From contig JAQZAZ010000009.1 in assembly GCA_029239355.1 (NCBI GenBank), positions 1 through 64,000 on the forward strand: 64,000 nucleotides of DNA, written 5' to 3'. This document shows positions 27,313-40,321 of the stretch, in pieces. The first letter of the stretch is position 1. Every line of letters begins with the position of its first letter. The DNA comes from Sphingobacterium sp. (GTDB lineage: Bacteria > Bacteroidota > Bacteroidia > Sphingobacteriales > Sphingobacteriaceae). Under the pieces are notes generated by a model, which saw only the letters and a list, made by a program, of their open reading frames with translations, was not told the DNA's origin and searched no databases. A program made the translations under genes and the position numbers.

Positions 27313-28047
27313 CTAGTAAAGTTTTTGATCTTTTAGGCAGTAAAAACATCTTCGTTTGGTTTTGCCCAAATGGTTTCGAGTTAGCCTTTCTCCGCATTTC
27401 GGACAGATCGATTTATTATGTACCAACCAATGTTTTTTTAATACAAACTCTCTTTTTCAGTGTAAAAAATCAAAACTGTAATTACGGGCTTCGACAATTA
27501 GTTTGTCTATCAATTTTGCGGGTAATTTTCCGATTAAACTTTCGGGCTGCACCCGGATTCTGAAAAGCACCTCATTTTTAATAATATTGCCGACACCCGA
27601 AAAGATATTCTGATCCAGAAGGGCATCACAAATCATAATATCTGGTAAAGATTTCAATTTTTTCTTTGCTTTTTTGGGATTCCAGATAGGACTCATCACA
27701 TCTGCTTCCCAATCGATTTCGGACAAGAAGATTTTATCAACGATTTTAGCCGAGCAGGTGTAGAAAAAAATACTACCGGTTTCGAATTGTATCATGAAGC
27801 GTAGACTTCTGTCTGTTTTGGTTTGTTGATCAATACTGTAAGAACCGAACATAAGTAAATGAATACGTATGGCCGCTGTATCAAACAGCAAATACAATTG
27901 TTTACCAAAGGTTTTGATATCGGATAGTACTTCATTATTTAACCAATATTTATCGAATTTGGCATTTCCCGAAGTACCTATTACCTTTTCACCTACAAAT
28001 TTTTGGAGATGTTCCTTTATCAATATTATTGAAGGACCTTCGGGCAT
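27313..28047 (-). pseudogene. Fpg/Nei family DNA glycosylase interrupted by an in-frame TGA before the zinc finger
   Basis: N-terminal MPEGPSI; first ORF stops at 27457, but the same frame continues KREFVLKKHWLVHNKSICPKCGERLTRNHLGKTKRRCFYCLKDQKLY* to 27313, restoring the CxxC...CxxC zinc finger. Confidence 0.8.
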
Positions 28048-28305: not shown

Positions 28306-29445
28306 ATGGATTCAAATTTTATCTATCTTGATTATAATGCGACGACACCAGTAGATGAGCGGGTATTAGATGAAATGCTTCCCTTTTTTACAACTTATTA
28401 TGCCAACCCAGCTGGGCTGCACCTGTTTAGCTTAACGATGCAGGATACTATCGAACAAGCAACAGAAGAGATTGCAAGCGCATTTCGTGTCCCATCAAAA
28501 AATATTATCTTCACTTCTGGCGCTACCGAAGGAATCAATTTAGCGATCAAGGGATTTCAGTTTTCTGTCAAGAAACATATTGTTAGTATTGTCACTGAGC
28601 ATAAAGCCGTACTGGAGGCTTGCGTTTTTATGGAGCGGCTGGGTTTTGAAGTCTCTTACCTTGAGGTGGATGACAAGGGAATGCTGGATCTGAATGCATT
28701 GACGGACATTATCCGTCAAGATACGGTGTTGGTTTGTGCTATGCTGGCGAATAATGAAACAGGTGTTATTTTGCCCATAAAAGAGATAAGCGAAATTGCC
28801 CATCAGCGCAACGTGTTCGTTTTGTGTGATGCCACCCAGGCAGTCGGTAAAATACGAATTGATCTCTGTGATCTTGCTGTTGATTTTCTTGTGTTTTCTG
28901 CACATAAATTTTATGGTCCGAAGGGCATCGGAGGACTCTATATTTCCGATCGTGCAAAACAAGATATTTTCCCGCTGATGCATGGTGGTGGACAGCAGCA
29001 GGGATGGCGTGGCGGTACACTCAATACAGCAGGAATCATCGGTATGGCTGCAGCCCTTCGAATTGCTTTTGATGAACTCGAGTGGGATCAACAGCGGGTA
29101 GCTCATCTTAGGGATTCGCTCGAAACTGAACTACTTGATATTACTGGAGCATACCGAAATGGCCATAGTCCCCAACGGCTCTACAATACAACAAACATCT
29201 GTTTTCCCGGTGCGCTTTCCGAACAGCTAATCATTCGGCTCAAGTCGATTTCTGTATCTAGTGGTTCGGCGTGCTCGGCAGTAACTTCCCGTCCTTCACA
29301 CGTACTTAAAGCCATGGGGCTTTCGGATCTGCATGCACTTTCTTCCATTCGATTTAGTCTTGGTAGATTTACCACCGAAGCGGAAATTGACCAAACGCTG
29401 GAGCAAGTCAAACAGCAGGTCCGAAAGCTGAGAAATTTAGCCTAA
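28306..29445 (+). CDS. Cysteine desulfurase (NifS/IscS-like)
   Basis: YLDYNATTPVDERV, SAHKFYGPKGIGGLY (PLP Lys), SSGSACSA (active Cys). Confidence 0.92.
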   Translation: MDSNFIYLDYNATTPVDERVLDEMLPFFTTYYANPAGLHLFSLTMQDTIEQATEEIASAFRVPSKNIIFTSGATEGINLAIKGFQFSVKKHIVSIVTEHKAVLEACVFMERLGFEVSYLEVDDKGMLDLNALTDIIRQDTVLVCAMLANNETGVILPIKEISEIAHQRNVFVLCDATQAVGKIRIDLCDLAVDFLVFSAHKFYGPKGIGGLYISDRAKQDIFPLMHGGGQQQGWRGGTLNTAGIIGMAAALRIAFDELEWDQQRVAHLRDSLETELLDITGAYRNGHSPQRLYNTTNICFPGALSEQLIIRLKSISVSSGSACSAVTSRPSHVLKAMGLSDLHALSSIRFSLGRFTTEAEIDQTLEQVKQQVRKLRNLA

Positions 29446-30389
29446 TGTCCCGTGTTTTCCCGAACTTGAAAAACATGAAGCACCTGTGGAAAAAGTGCAG
29501 CAATACTTTCTCGCACTCCATTTGGTGATCCGGGCAACGTGAGAATAAGCATATGGTCTGCAAACCCCGCAATGCCTCTGGATAGCATTGCCGTCTTGAC
29601 ACGTTGCTGGCCATATTGGCGTGCTGTTTCCATAATACCAGGGATGTTCGTCGTAATATAAGGGGCTACAGTATCAGGTGTAATATCTCGCTCCGAAAGC
29701 CCAGTACCACCGGTAAAAATTAAAAGATCAATTCCTGTTTGCTGATAATATTCTAACCTTTCTGCTATGGCCTCGCGTTCATCTGCAACCACTGAATAGA
29801 CAATATCGTGCAATCCTTGCTGCTCGAGAAGTTCGAAAAGGAGCTTTCCCGAAATATCTTCTTTGTTGCTCTTTGCGACCGAATCGCTACAAACTACGAC
29901 AGCGGCTTTAAGATGCTCGATCCAGGGAAGGGATTCATTACTCTTGCCTCCTCGTTTTTCGAGCAGACGGATGCCTCGGATTTCTACTTGTTTGTCCACA
30001 GGCTTCAGCATATCGTAGATGACCAGTGCTGCGACCGAAGCTCCATGCATGGCTTCTACTTCGACCCCCGTTTTGTATATCGTATGTACCTCGACTTCAA
30101 TATTGATCTCCAATCCGGAAAGGGTATAACGAATTGCAGCATATTCTACCGGCAGAGGATGACAATCGGGGATCATATCGCCTGTCTTTTTTATCGCTAA
30201 CAGAGCCGAAGCACGTGCAAATTCAAATATATCGCCTTTAGGAATCTGTCGTTGCTCGATGAGCTTGATGGTATGTTCGGATGATACCTTTATCGTTGCT
30301 AGCGCAATAGCCTTCCTTAAGGTAGTACTTTTATATGTAATATCGACCATGTTATCTATTCGTTTTCCATTGATGAGTGTTGTCTTCAA
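29442..30389 (-). CDS. moaCB: Bifunctional molybdenum cofactor biosynthesis protein MoaC/MogA
   Basis: N-terminal MoaC (MVDITYK, CHPLP, VEVEAMHGAS) fused to MogA/MoaB-like (TGGTGLSERDITPD, LPGSPNGVRE). Confidence 0.92.
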   Translation of the reverse strand: MKTTLINGKRIDNMVDITYKSTTLRKAIALATIKVSSEHTIKLIEQRQIPKGDIFEFARASALLAIKKTGDMIPDCHPLPVEYAAIRYTLSGLEINIEVEVHTIYKTGVEVEAMHGASVAALVIYDMLKPVDKQVEIRGIRLLEKRGGKSNESLPWIEHLKAAVVVCSDSVAKSNKEDISGKLLFELLEQQGLHDIVYSVVADEREAIAERLEYYQQTGIDLLIFTGGTGLSERDITPDTVAPYITTNIPGIMETARQYGQQRVKTAMLSRGIAGFADHMLILTLPGSPNGVRESIAALFPQVLHVFQVRENTGH

Positions 30390-30792
30390 ATAGTTCTTTG
30401 CCCCAGATTGGCATTTCTTTTTTTATGCGTTCAACAAGCTCGTCACAGGCACCAATAGCTGCCCGACGATGCGCTGAAGAAGTAAATACGAAGAAGCAGA
30501 TTTCACCTACCTGTACCATGCCCTCGCTGTGGTACACGTGCATACAGTTGACGGGATAGTTATCAAAGATTGCTTTGCGGATCTCAGCCATTTTTTGCAG
30601 CGCAAGTTCGCTGTTGATACTGTACTCAATAGCTTGAACTGATTTACCTCCGACTTGGTCAGCACGGATCTGTCCAAGAAAGACACTGTGGGCACCGATA
30701 TCGGATTTACTACCATGCTCTGCAATTACATCTGCAATCAATGACTGAGGAATGGGGCCTTGTATAAATATATCGTTTTTTTGTTTAGTCAT
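30352..30792 (-). CDS. moaE: Molybdopterin synthase catalytic subunit
   Basis: FTSSAHRRAAIGACDELVERIKKEMPIWGKE typical MoaE. Confidence 0.93.
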   Translation of the reverse strand: MTKQKNDIFIQGPIPQSLIADVIAEHGSKSDIGAHSVFLGQIRADQVGGKSVQAIEYSINSELALQKMAEIRKAIFDNYPVNCMHVYHSEGMVQVGEICFFVFTSSAHRRAAIGACDELVERIKKEMPIWGKELFEDNTHQWKTNR

Positions 30793-31891
30793 CTAAATAG
30801 TTTTTTAAAGCGATCATGCCGCCCTCCAGATGAAATACCTGTTGGCTGCTGCCTCGCTGGTCGTAGAAATATTGTGCGGCCGTAAGACTGCGTTTGCCGC
30901 TCTGACAGATAAAAACAATGCGCCTGCGGTCGATTTTTTCCAATTGCGTCGGCAATGTCCCCAGGGGAATGGAGAGATGGGGTACTTGGAGCCGGGGCGT
31001 TTCATTATACTCTCGCACATCCACAAGCAAGAGGTCGGTGGCCTCCCAGGTGGTTATCAGTTCAGCTATCGTTATACCCTGTATCTGACTACGCACTGAA
31101 GCACAATACTGAATATAATCGAAATCTTTCAATGCATTTAAGCTCCGTGGATAGGAGCTTTCATTGAAACTTGTTTGTGGTATATTAAAAGTAAATATGC
31201 CGTTATCAAGCAAGTTGATTGTCATTAGCTTATTGCTTAAAATGGTTCCTATACCTGTCAATAATTTAATAGCTTCTGTAGCTTGATGAATTCCGATCAT
31301 CCCAGGTAGCACGCCCAAAACTCCTGCAGCATTACAATCGGGCGATTCCATAGGATTGGGGGGGATCGGGAATAAATTTCTGTAAGTGGTCTTGACACCT
31401 TGTACATCCGCTACATTGAAAACTGCCAGCTGACCTTCATACTGGTAAATGGCACCAAAAACCAGAGGTTTGTCCAAGAGAAAGCAAGCATCGCATAGCA
31501 GGTAGCGTGTAGCGAAATTATCCGTACAGTCCAAAATCACATCATAGGGTTGGAGCCGTTCAGCTGCATTAGCAGGGCATAACTGCTCTACCCAAAAAGC
31601 AATGTCAATATCGGGGTTTTGTAGTCTCAATTTACGGGCTGCGACCTCAGCTTTGGCACGGCCAATGTCCATTGTATCGTAGAGTACCTGCCGGTGTAGA
31701 TTGCTCAGCTCCACACGATCATCATCAATAATACCGATATGGCCAATGCCGGCTGCAGCTAGGTACTGGAGTACCGGACAGCCTAGACCGCCAGCCCCTA
31801 CAACAAGGAGGCGTGCCGCCTGCAGCTTCTGTTGACCTACCTCGCCAAACCCTTGCAAGGCAAGCTGTCTTGTGTAACGTTCATTCTGCAT
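30785..31891 (-). CDS. moeB: MoeB/ThiF-like adenylyltransferase with C-terminal rhodanese domain
   Basis: RYTRQLALQGFGEVGQQKL, GAGGLGCPVLQYLAAAGIG, C-terminal VFICQSGKRS rhodanese loop. Confidence 0.93.
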   Translation of the reverse strand: MQNERYTRQLALQGFGEVGQQKLQAARLLVVGAGGLGCPVLQYLAAAGIGHIGIIDDDRVELSNLHRQVLYDTMDIGRAKAEVAARKLRLQNPDIDIAFWVEQLCPANAAERLQPYDVILDCTDNFATRYLLCDACFLLDKPLVFGAIYQYEGQLAVFNVADVQGVKTTYRNLFPIPPNPMESPDCNAAGVLGVLPGMIGIHQATEAIKLLTGIGTILSNKLMTINLLDNGIFTFNIPQTSFNESSYPRSLNALKDFDYIQYCASVRSQIQGITIAELITTWEATDLLLVDVREYNETPRLQVPHLSIPLGTLPTQLEKIDRRRIVFICQSGKRSLTAAQYFYDQRGSSQQVFHLEGGMIALKNYLDD

Positions 31892-31894
31892 TAC

Positions 31895-32122
31895 TTATCC
31901 TCCTGAATAGGGTGGCATCAATGCCACGACATCATTATCACGTAGGTCTACAGGTGTGTTAATAATTGTATTGTTAACAGCAACTAACAGTTTGCGATGG
32001 GAAAGTTCCGGATGTTGGCGGGATAGGGCAGTGAGCAGCTCAGCGGTGTCACCTGCTGTGACATAAAACTCTCTTTCGAGGATTTCCGTCAAAGCACCAA
32101 ATGTCTTCACTTGTATTCTCAT
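31895..32122 (-). CDS. moaD: Molybdopterin synthase sulfur carrier subunit
   Basis: 75 aa ubiquitin-like, ends VALMPPYSGG. Confidence 0.9.
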   Translation of the reverse strand: MRIQVKTFGALTEILEREFYVTAGDTAELLTALSRQHPELSHRKLLVAVNNTIINTPVDLRDNDVVALMPPYSGG

Positions 32123-38029: not shown

Positions 38030-40321
38030 ATGAATATATTAACTCCTTTTCAAAAAAGAAAGACGGCAAGGGTCGATTCGGAGATTTTTAGTGTTTCCAG
38101 ACGTGACTTTTTAAAAACCAGTGGCCTGCTTACCGGTGGACTGATACTCGGCGTTAGTTTTTTTAGCTGTGACAGTAAAGGTAAGAAGCTGGCAACTTTG
38201 GCTCCCAATGTCTATCTGAGCGTAGCTTCAGATGGCAAAGTAACGATTGTCGCCCATCGATCAGAGATGGGACAGGGGATTCGAACCTCGCTTCCGCTGA
38301 TCATAGCTGATGAAATGGGGGCCGATTGGAATAAGGTGGAAATTATACAAGCCGAAGGAGATGAAAAGAAATATGGAAATCAAAATACTGATGGTTCATT
38401 CTCGGTACGGATGTTCTATAAACCCATGCGGGAGGCTGGAGCCATTGTTAGGTTATTGCTCCTGCGTGCTGCCGCCAAAGAATGGCAGATTGACGTAACT
38501 AAGTTAGATACCCAAAATGGACAGGTTATCCAACTTGGATCAAGTAGGAAGAAAGATTTTGGGGATCTGGTGCAAACGGCCTTGTCCCTGCCAGTTCCAA
38601 AAGTTTCCGAGATCAAGCTGAAGGACAGGCAGCACTTCAATATGATTGGGAAAGAAACCCCGATTATTGATTTGCACGATATTGTAACAGGCAAAGCAGT
38701 TTTCGGGATCGATGCTATTGTCGAAGGAATGAAAATCGCCGTGATCAAGCGCTGTCCTGTGGTTGGGGGAAGTGTAAAGTCGGTCAACGATCGTAAAGCA
38801 CTTGCTGTACCTGGTGTCGTCAAAGTGATTACAATCAAAGGTGCAGGCCTGCCAGCAACCCTGTCAAGACCACTTAGTGGCGTGGCCGTGATTGCTGAAA
38901 ATACTTGGGCAGCGATCAAAGCACGCGATCTATTAGAGGTGGAATGGGAATTGGGTGCAAATGCGAGCTACAACTCTGCCATACAGATTGAAGAGCTCAA
39001 GCAGGTGGTTGGGCAGGAGGGAACGCTTCGGCGTAAGCGGGGCGATTTCGATGCTGCCAAGGCGAATGCAAAAAAAGTGATTGAACATACCTATATAGCA
39101 CCCTACCTGGCGCATGCAACCATTGAACCCCCCTGCGCGCTGGCTATCGTGACAAACGGAAGCTGTGAAATATGGGCATGCACACAGAATCCCCAAGGCG
39201 CACGTGATGCTGTGGCCAAGGAGCTGGGAGTTGCCGCGGAAAAGGTAAAAATGAATGTTACACTGCTTGGAGGAGGATTCGGGCGAAAGTCTAAACCTGA
39301 CTTTATACTCGAGGCGGCTATTCTTGCCAAGGAATCCGGTCTGCCTATTAAAGTACAGTGGACACGGGAAGATGATATCCGTCACGATTACTATCATGCA
39401 ATGAGCGTGCAACGCATTGTGGCGACCATCGATAGCCAAAATAAATTGAGCGGCTGGGCACATCATATTGCCAATCCATCCATCTCTGCGACGGAAGACC
39501 AAGCCGTTGTACAACCCAGTGATGGTGAATTAATGTTGGGCGCCTCGGATTTCCCGTACAACGTGCCAGCTATCAATATTGCAACACATGATGCAAAGGC
39601 ACATCTGCGGATTGGTTGGTTGAGATCGGTTCGCAATATTCCGCAAGTATTTGCCGCAGCAACCATGCTGGACGAAATTGCAGAAGCAAGAGGCCTGGAC
39701 GCTGTAGCCAATGCATTGGAATTGCTTGGAGAAGATCGCCATATTACTTTCGAACAAGAATTAATCAAGACAACCTATCCCAACTATGGTGAAAAGATCG
39801 AAGACTATCCCTGGGAAACCAGTCGAATGAAAAAAGTGATTGAACGGGTCGCTAAAGAATCGGGTTGGGGAAAAAGTATGCCTGCAGGTAGCGCACTTGG
39901 CTTTGCTGCACATAAAAGCTTTCTGACCTATGTCGCTTGTGTAGTGGAAGTAAAAGTTAGTCAGGATAAAAAAATTAGTATCCCCAATGTGTACTATGCA
40001 GTTGACTGTGGGTTGGCGGTCAATGTGGACCGGATCAAATCGCAGTTTGAGGGTGGGGCACAATTTTCAGCCAGCTTTGCGCTAAAAAGCGCGATTACGG
40101 TAAAAAATGGGGAGGTAGAGCAGAGTAACTTTGACGGCTATCAGATTATCCGGATGCCTGATTCGCCTAAACAGATCCATGTGTATATCCTAGATAGTGA
40201 TGCGAAGCCTACGGGCGTAGGCGAGCCTCCAGTACCACCGTTTACGCCAGCGCTCTGCAATGCAATTTACGCTGCTACTGGAAAACGGATCTATACACTT
40301 CCAATTGATCTGACTGTTTAG
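38030..40321 (+). CDS. Molybdopterin-binding subunit of xanthine-dehydrogenase-family oxidoreductase (IorB-like), Tat signal
   Basis: SRRDFLKTSG twin-arginine; GGGFGRKSKPDF; GVGEPPVPPFTPALCNAI. Confidence 0.93.
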   Translation: MNILTPFQKRKTARVDSEIFSVSRRDFLKTSGLLTGGLILGVSFFSCDSKGKKLATLAPNVYLSVASDGKVTIVAHRSEMGQGIRTSLPLIIADEMGADWNKVEIIQAEGDEKKYGNQNTDGSFSVRMFYKPMREAGAIVRLLLLRAAAKEWQIDVTKLDTQNGQVIQLGSSRKKDFGDLVQTALSLPVPKVSEIKLKDRQHFNMIGKETPIIDLHDIVTGKAVFGIDAIVEGMKIAVIKRCPVVGGSVKSVNDRKALAVPGVVKVITIKGAGLPATLSRPLSGVAVIAENTWAAIKARDLLEVEWELGANASYNSAIQIEELKQVVGQEGTLRRKRGDFDAAKANAKKVIEHTYIAPYLAHATIEPPCALAIVTNGSCEIWACTQNPQGARDAVAKELGVAAEKVKMNVTLLGGGFGRKSKPDFILEAAILAKESGLPIKVQWTREDDIRHDYYHAMSVQRIVATIDSQNKLSGWAHHIANPSISATEDQAVVQPSDGELMLGASDFPYNVPAINIATHDAKAHLRIGWLRSVRNIPQVFAAATMLDEIAEARGLDAVANALELLGEDRHITFEQELIKTTYPNYGEKIEDYPWETSRMKKVIERVAKESGWGKSMPAGSALGFAAHKSFLTYVACVVEVKVSQDKKISIPNVYYAVDCGLAVNVDRIKSQFEGGAQFSASFALKSAITVKNGEVEQSNFDGYQIIRMPDSPKQIHVYILDSDAKPTGVGEPPVPPFTPALCNAIYAATGKRIYTLPIDLTV

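Follow-up and report, generated by a model that had tools for sequence, protein, structure and literature searches.

The window, a 64,000-nucleotide stretch of Sphingobacterium sp. DNA (assembly GCA_029239355.1, contig JAQZAZ010000009.1, positions 1 to 64,000 of the forward strand), contained an interrupted gene for a DNA glycosylase of the Fpg/Nei (H2TH) family, encoded on the minus strand (Table 1). The annotated ORF (28047–27457) comprised 196 codons followed by TGA. As the initial annotation had claimed, the same frame continued beyond this stop, for 47 further codons and then TAG; reading the TGA as Trp gave a protein of 244 residues. The downstream part was real coding sequence, as residues 198–244 aligned with the corresponding residues of relatives. 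The neighbouring genes (28306–32122) were a class-V aminotransferase (cysteine desulfurase-like) gene and apparent molybdopterin-synthesis genes adjoining the glycosylase gene, among them a MoaC/MoCF_biosynth fusion at 29442–30389.

Table 1. Features of the interrupted glycosylase locus (window positions)
Feature	Position	Strand	Description and basis
Interrupted Fpg/Nei (H2TH) family DNA glycosylase frame	27316..28047	(-)	244 codons, break at codon 197; translation, Pfam PF01149 and PF06831, full-length copy in S. prati
Codons 1–196, product expected with normal termination	27460..28047	(-)	N-terminal catalytic domain (MPEGP, K49) and H2TH domain (GVGNIIKNE); domains at 1–97 and 128–184
In-frame TGA, codon 197	27457..27459	(-)	TGG (Trp) in every readable relative; followed by A (+4)
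Codons 198–244, undamaged tail	27316..27456	(-)	Finger C215, C218, C237, D240, also C234; conserved Arg232
Ancestral TAG stop	27313..27315	(-)	Sequence and read-through translation

Family membership and the C-terminal finger

Two Pfam domains were recovered above their cut-offs: PF01149, the N-terminal domain with the catalytic Pro-Glu (29.5 against 25.5 bits; the sequence starts MPEGP), and PF06831, the H2TH domain (40.3 against 34.7 bits). The best NCBIfam model was NF040775 (the Nei2 equivalog), yet it scored 60.5 bits against a cut-off of 400. Scores were far under the equivalog cut-offs for Nei2, Fpg and Nei alike, and by these scores the glycosylase is classed as a divergent Nei-like subfamily, not as Nei2 proper. 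Its best sequence match in the PDB was NEIL3. The gene shared the MPEGP N-terminus, K49 and the GVGNIIKNE motif with the Nei2/Nei-like branch of Fpg/Nei, and its read-through frame added the C-terminal finger and conserved Arg; it differed from that branch in having TGA ahead of the finger and Asp in place of the fourth zinc Cys.

The zinc ligands of the family occupy positions 215, 218, 237 and 240. Three of these (C215, C218 and C237), together with R232, were encoded only beyond the TGA, while the normal product stops at residue 196. Position 240 was Asp, as in most Chryseobacterium homologues, the fourth canonical Cys being usually Asp in this subfamily. The intact C-x2-C...C-x2-C zinc finger described in the initial annotation was, therefore, nearly canonical, but not wholly so; furthermore, the C-x2-C that had been read there was C234/C237, which is three residues off the finger pattern of the family. 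C234 was common to all five Sphingobacterium copies. R232 was kept in 66 of 67 relatives and, from its placement relative to the last shared Cys, we take it to be the conserved finger Arg of the H2TH family. H2TH glycosylases insert one absolutely conserved finger Arg into the active site (PMC9266487).

Codon 197 in relatives and the age of the lesion

A scan of genome contigs identified 69 homologues; 68 were readable at codon 197 and one was frameshifted just upstream. Codon 197 was Trp, coded TGG, in all 68 readable homologues, each from a named genome. This agreed with the earlier expectation of a Trp at the stop codon and with the proposal that one change, from TGG to TGA, explains the stop. 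Within Sphingobacterium the gene was present in 5 of 94 genomes, and was therefore considered accessory; these comprised the present genome, with TGA, and four others without any stop, which were 74–93% identical and had TGG at codon 197. The nearest was the orthologue of Sphingobacterium prati (NZ_JABJWY010000024.1), which was intact, full length, 93% identical in protein sequence and set in the same gene order, but had TGG at codon 197; DNA identity between the S. prati and window genomes was approximately 94–95% across most of the collinear region. No relative examined had TGA at codon 197.

Isolated lesions were seen across other species (TAA at codon 34, TGA at codon 82, TGA at codon 207 and a frameshift near codon 194). 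Within the genus-level set that included Chryseobacterium, internal stops affected 3 of 149 homologue-bearing genomes; these were the TAA at codon 34 and the TGA at codon 82, neither position being Trp in aligned relatives, and a copy with a frameshift, from a record that was 75% complete. A case resembling the present one was the homologue in Dyadobacter sp. CY347 (NZ_JAKFFT010000002.1; L078:6001-6738), which also had a single TGA at a Trp codon and an undamaged finger downstream. This TGA was situated at another Trp (207), where the relatives of the Dyadobacter homologue have TGG, and was therefore an independent event. Isolated, and differing in codon and kind, such lesions are as expected where a repair gene is dispensable and is lost sporadically, rather than where readthrough is conserved.

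The gene was under normal constraint (dN/dS = 0.22 relative to S. prati; local median = 0.13; rank 52 of 66 local genes). When changes were assigned to branches using three outgroups, no substitution in tail codons 198–244 was assignable to the window lineage, while two nonsynonymous changes fell on the S. prati branch and one could be placed on neither; the earlier description of the downstream frame as otherwise undamaged was, therefore, borne out. Across the whole gene, at most 12 nonsynonymous changes could belong to its own branch, against approximately 38 expected if it had been neutral since the S. prati split (P ~1e-6, roughly estimated by placing half of the pairwise dS of 0.13 on the window branch). 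On these substitution counts, a loss dating to the S. prati split was excluded and the lesion would be much younger. Given this deficit, and a tail in which no change was resolvable to the window lineage, the lesion was either young or absent from the living cell. A single disrupting change, an intact copy in the sister species and the lack of accumulated decay are the marks of a recent nonsense (pseudogene) allele, and all three were observed.

The locus was best explained, and probably correctly so, as a nonsense allele of ordinary kind and very recent origin, in an accessory DNA glycosylase gene of the Fpg/Nei type, seen in one genome of the species. Of the three origins initially proposed for the stop, a recent nonsense mutation was the most likely and a base error was possible; functional readthrough was disfavoured because the stop occurred in no relative and because other species had isolated stops at other codons.

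Quality of the draft sequence

The main rival to a nonsense allele was a base-calling or assembly error, or a minority variant in the consensus, such that the living strain would have TGG and a normal enzyme; this was considered unlikely, though a realistic alternative. Only one base need be wrong, in a gene that was normally constrained over its whole length, and the draft assembly was fragmented (316 contigs, 91% complete) and missing essential genes. Neither the organism's own tRNA-Trp gene nor a canonical prfA gene, which was found in relatives, was found in the draft genome, where a NusG-type search produced one weak match only; therefore, assembly gaps exist. An IUPAC pattern search for tRNA-Trp gave no match.

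However, among 137 ORFs shared with S. prati (on three contigs, amounting to approximately 150 kb of coding sequence) there was one internal stop, this being the TGA at codon 197, and no other internal stop or frameshift. The assembly was therefore not generally corrupt here and its error rate not high, and the same comparison led to the rejection of genome-wide error or recoding. Other flagged ORFs had stops or joins either within their first few dozen codons, which were ascribed to start sites predicted too far upstream, or between genes; a frameshift at position 38490 of the organism's own contig C234 was rejected, since the position falls between two genes. Moreover, similar isolated lesions occurred in well-assembled relatives.

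UGA decoding and the expected product

The tRNA-Trp genes of three relatives (near nusG; L161, L162 and L163) had a CCA anticodon and five anticodon-stem pairs, and that of a fourth relative was identical. A tRNA-Trp with a 4-bp anticodon stem was rejected, as the genus gene pairs five. The Sphingobacterium tRNA-Trp (CCA) naturally had A24, which is the base of the Hirsh-type UGA suppressor change in E. coli, where the wild-type tRNA-Trp has G24; this may indicate that the genus misreads UGA more often than average. Changes G24A and A9C in tRNA-Trp favour the reading of UGA (PMC13092985), and in E. coli tRNA-Trp is especially apt to misread UGA when the next base is A (PMC5289835).

The A24 base and the UGA-A context are both consistent with functional, selected readthrough, in which decoding by tRNA-Trp would give a regulated ratio of fingerless to full-length enzyme, as are the intact tail and the second TGA-for-Trp in Dyadobacter. 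Nevertheless, this was judged very improbable: the stop was found in no relative, and the isolated lesions elsewhere were at other codons and included a TAA, a non-Trp TGA and a frameshift, which tRNA-Trp would not restore. The genus tRNA-Trp had a normal anticodon and anticodon stem, and there was no unusual fold downstream of the TGA (z = -1.0), so that a readthrough element was also rejected. Programmed readthrough would entail a stop conserved across relatives and selection on the downstream frame, whereas this stop was unique among the relatives examined.

Slightly less probable still was selection for the 196-residue protein as a functional glycosylase or AP lyase that lacks a finger. 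Its N-terminal and H2TH domains were complete, and the superfamily includes zincless members (PMC9266487); but zincless members retain the finger fold and the Arg, and the truncation here loses both. R232 was conserved almost universally, and no relative ends naturally at this position. An organism-wide code change from UGA to Trp was strongly disfavoured and UGA reassignment rejected, since RF2 was intact, TGA served normally as a terminator (of 78 local ORFs, 12 ended in it) and the ORFs compared contained no further in-frame TGA in place of Trp, even though the tRNA-Trp evidence came from relatives only, the organism's own gene apparently lying in an assembly gap.

Returning to the nonsense allele, comparison with relatives shows that a G-to-A transition on the coding strand, in the third position of codon 197, converted the invariant TGG to TGA. 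With RF2 intact and UGA normally used as a stop, translation would end at codon 197 and yield 196 residues without the C-terminal finger and Arg232. Judging from the mechanism of the family, this protein would fail to position damaged DNA in its active site, and should be inactive. Some UGA leak is plausible, in that near-cognate tRNA-Trp may occasionally insert Trp at UGA-A and so provide a trace of the full-length, normal enzyme; there was no stop in common with relatives and no unusual fold downstream, and such leak was not, therefore, marked as programmed.

A second family member elsewhere in the genome may cushion the loss. This was the only other Fpg/Nei member detected there; it was of the zincless-finger type (KIGGRSTYY) and intact (L009:1501-2271; G000:C234:49753). 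The zincless-finger paralogue in S. prati (L097; G009:C34:24033 region) was disrupted at codon 175, by a +1 frameshift within a C-run, whereas the S. prati copy of the window gene was intact; hence, the sister species each had one clean lesion, affecting a different one of these two paralogues.

Alone, the finding is of little weight, adding another nonsense allele of recent origin, in a repair gene that is accessory. When a clean in-frame UGA replaces Trp and the tail behind it is undamaged, this does not on its own indicate recoding, and comparison with relatives settles most of that question. There is a slim chance that Bacteroidota with A24-type tRNA-Trp tolerate TGA at Trp codons, such that leaky decoding of UGA-A makes the finger of this glycosylase at low level, with Dyadobacter as a second case. 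If this were true, the gene would offer a simple way to test the extent to which nonsense mutations in Bacteroidota are buffered by natural misreading of UGA.
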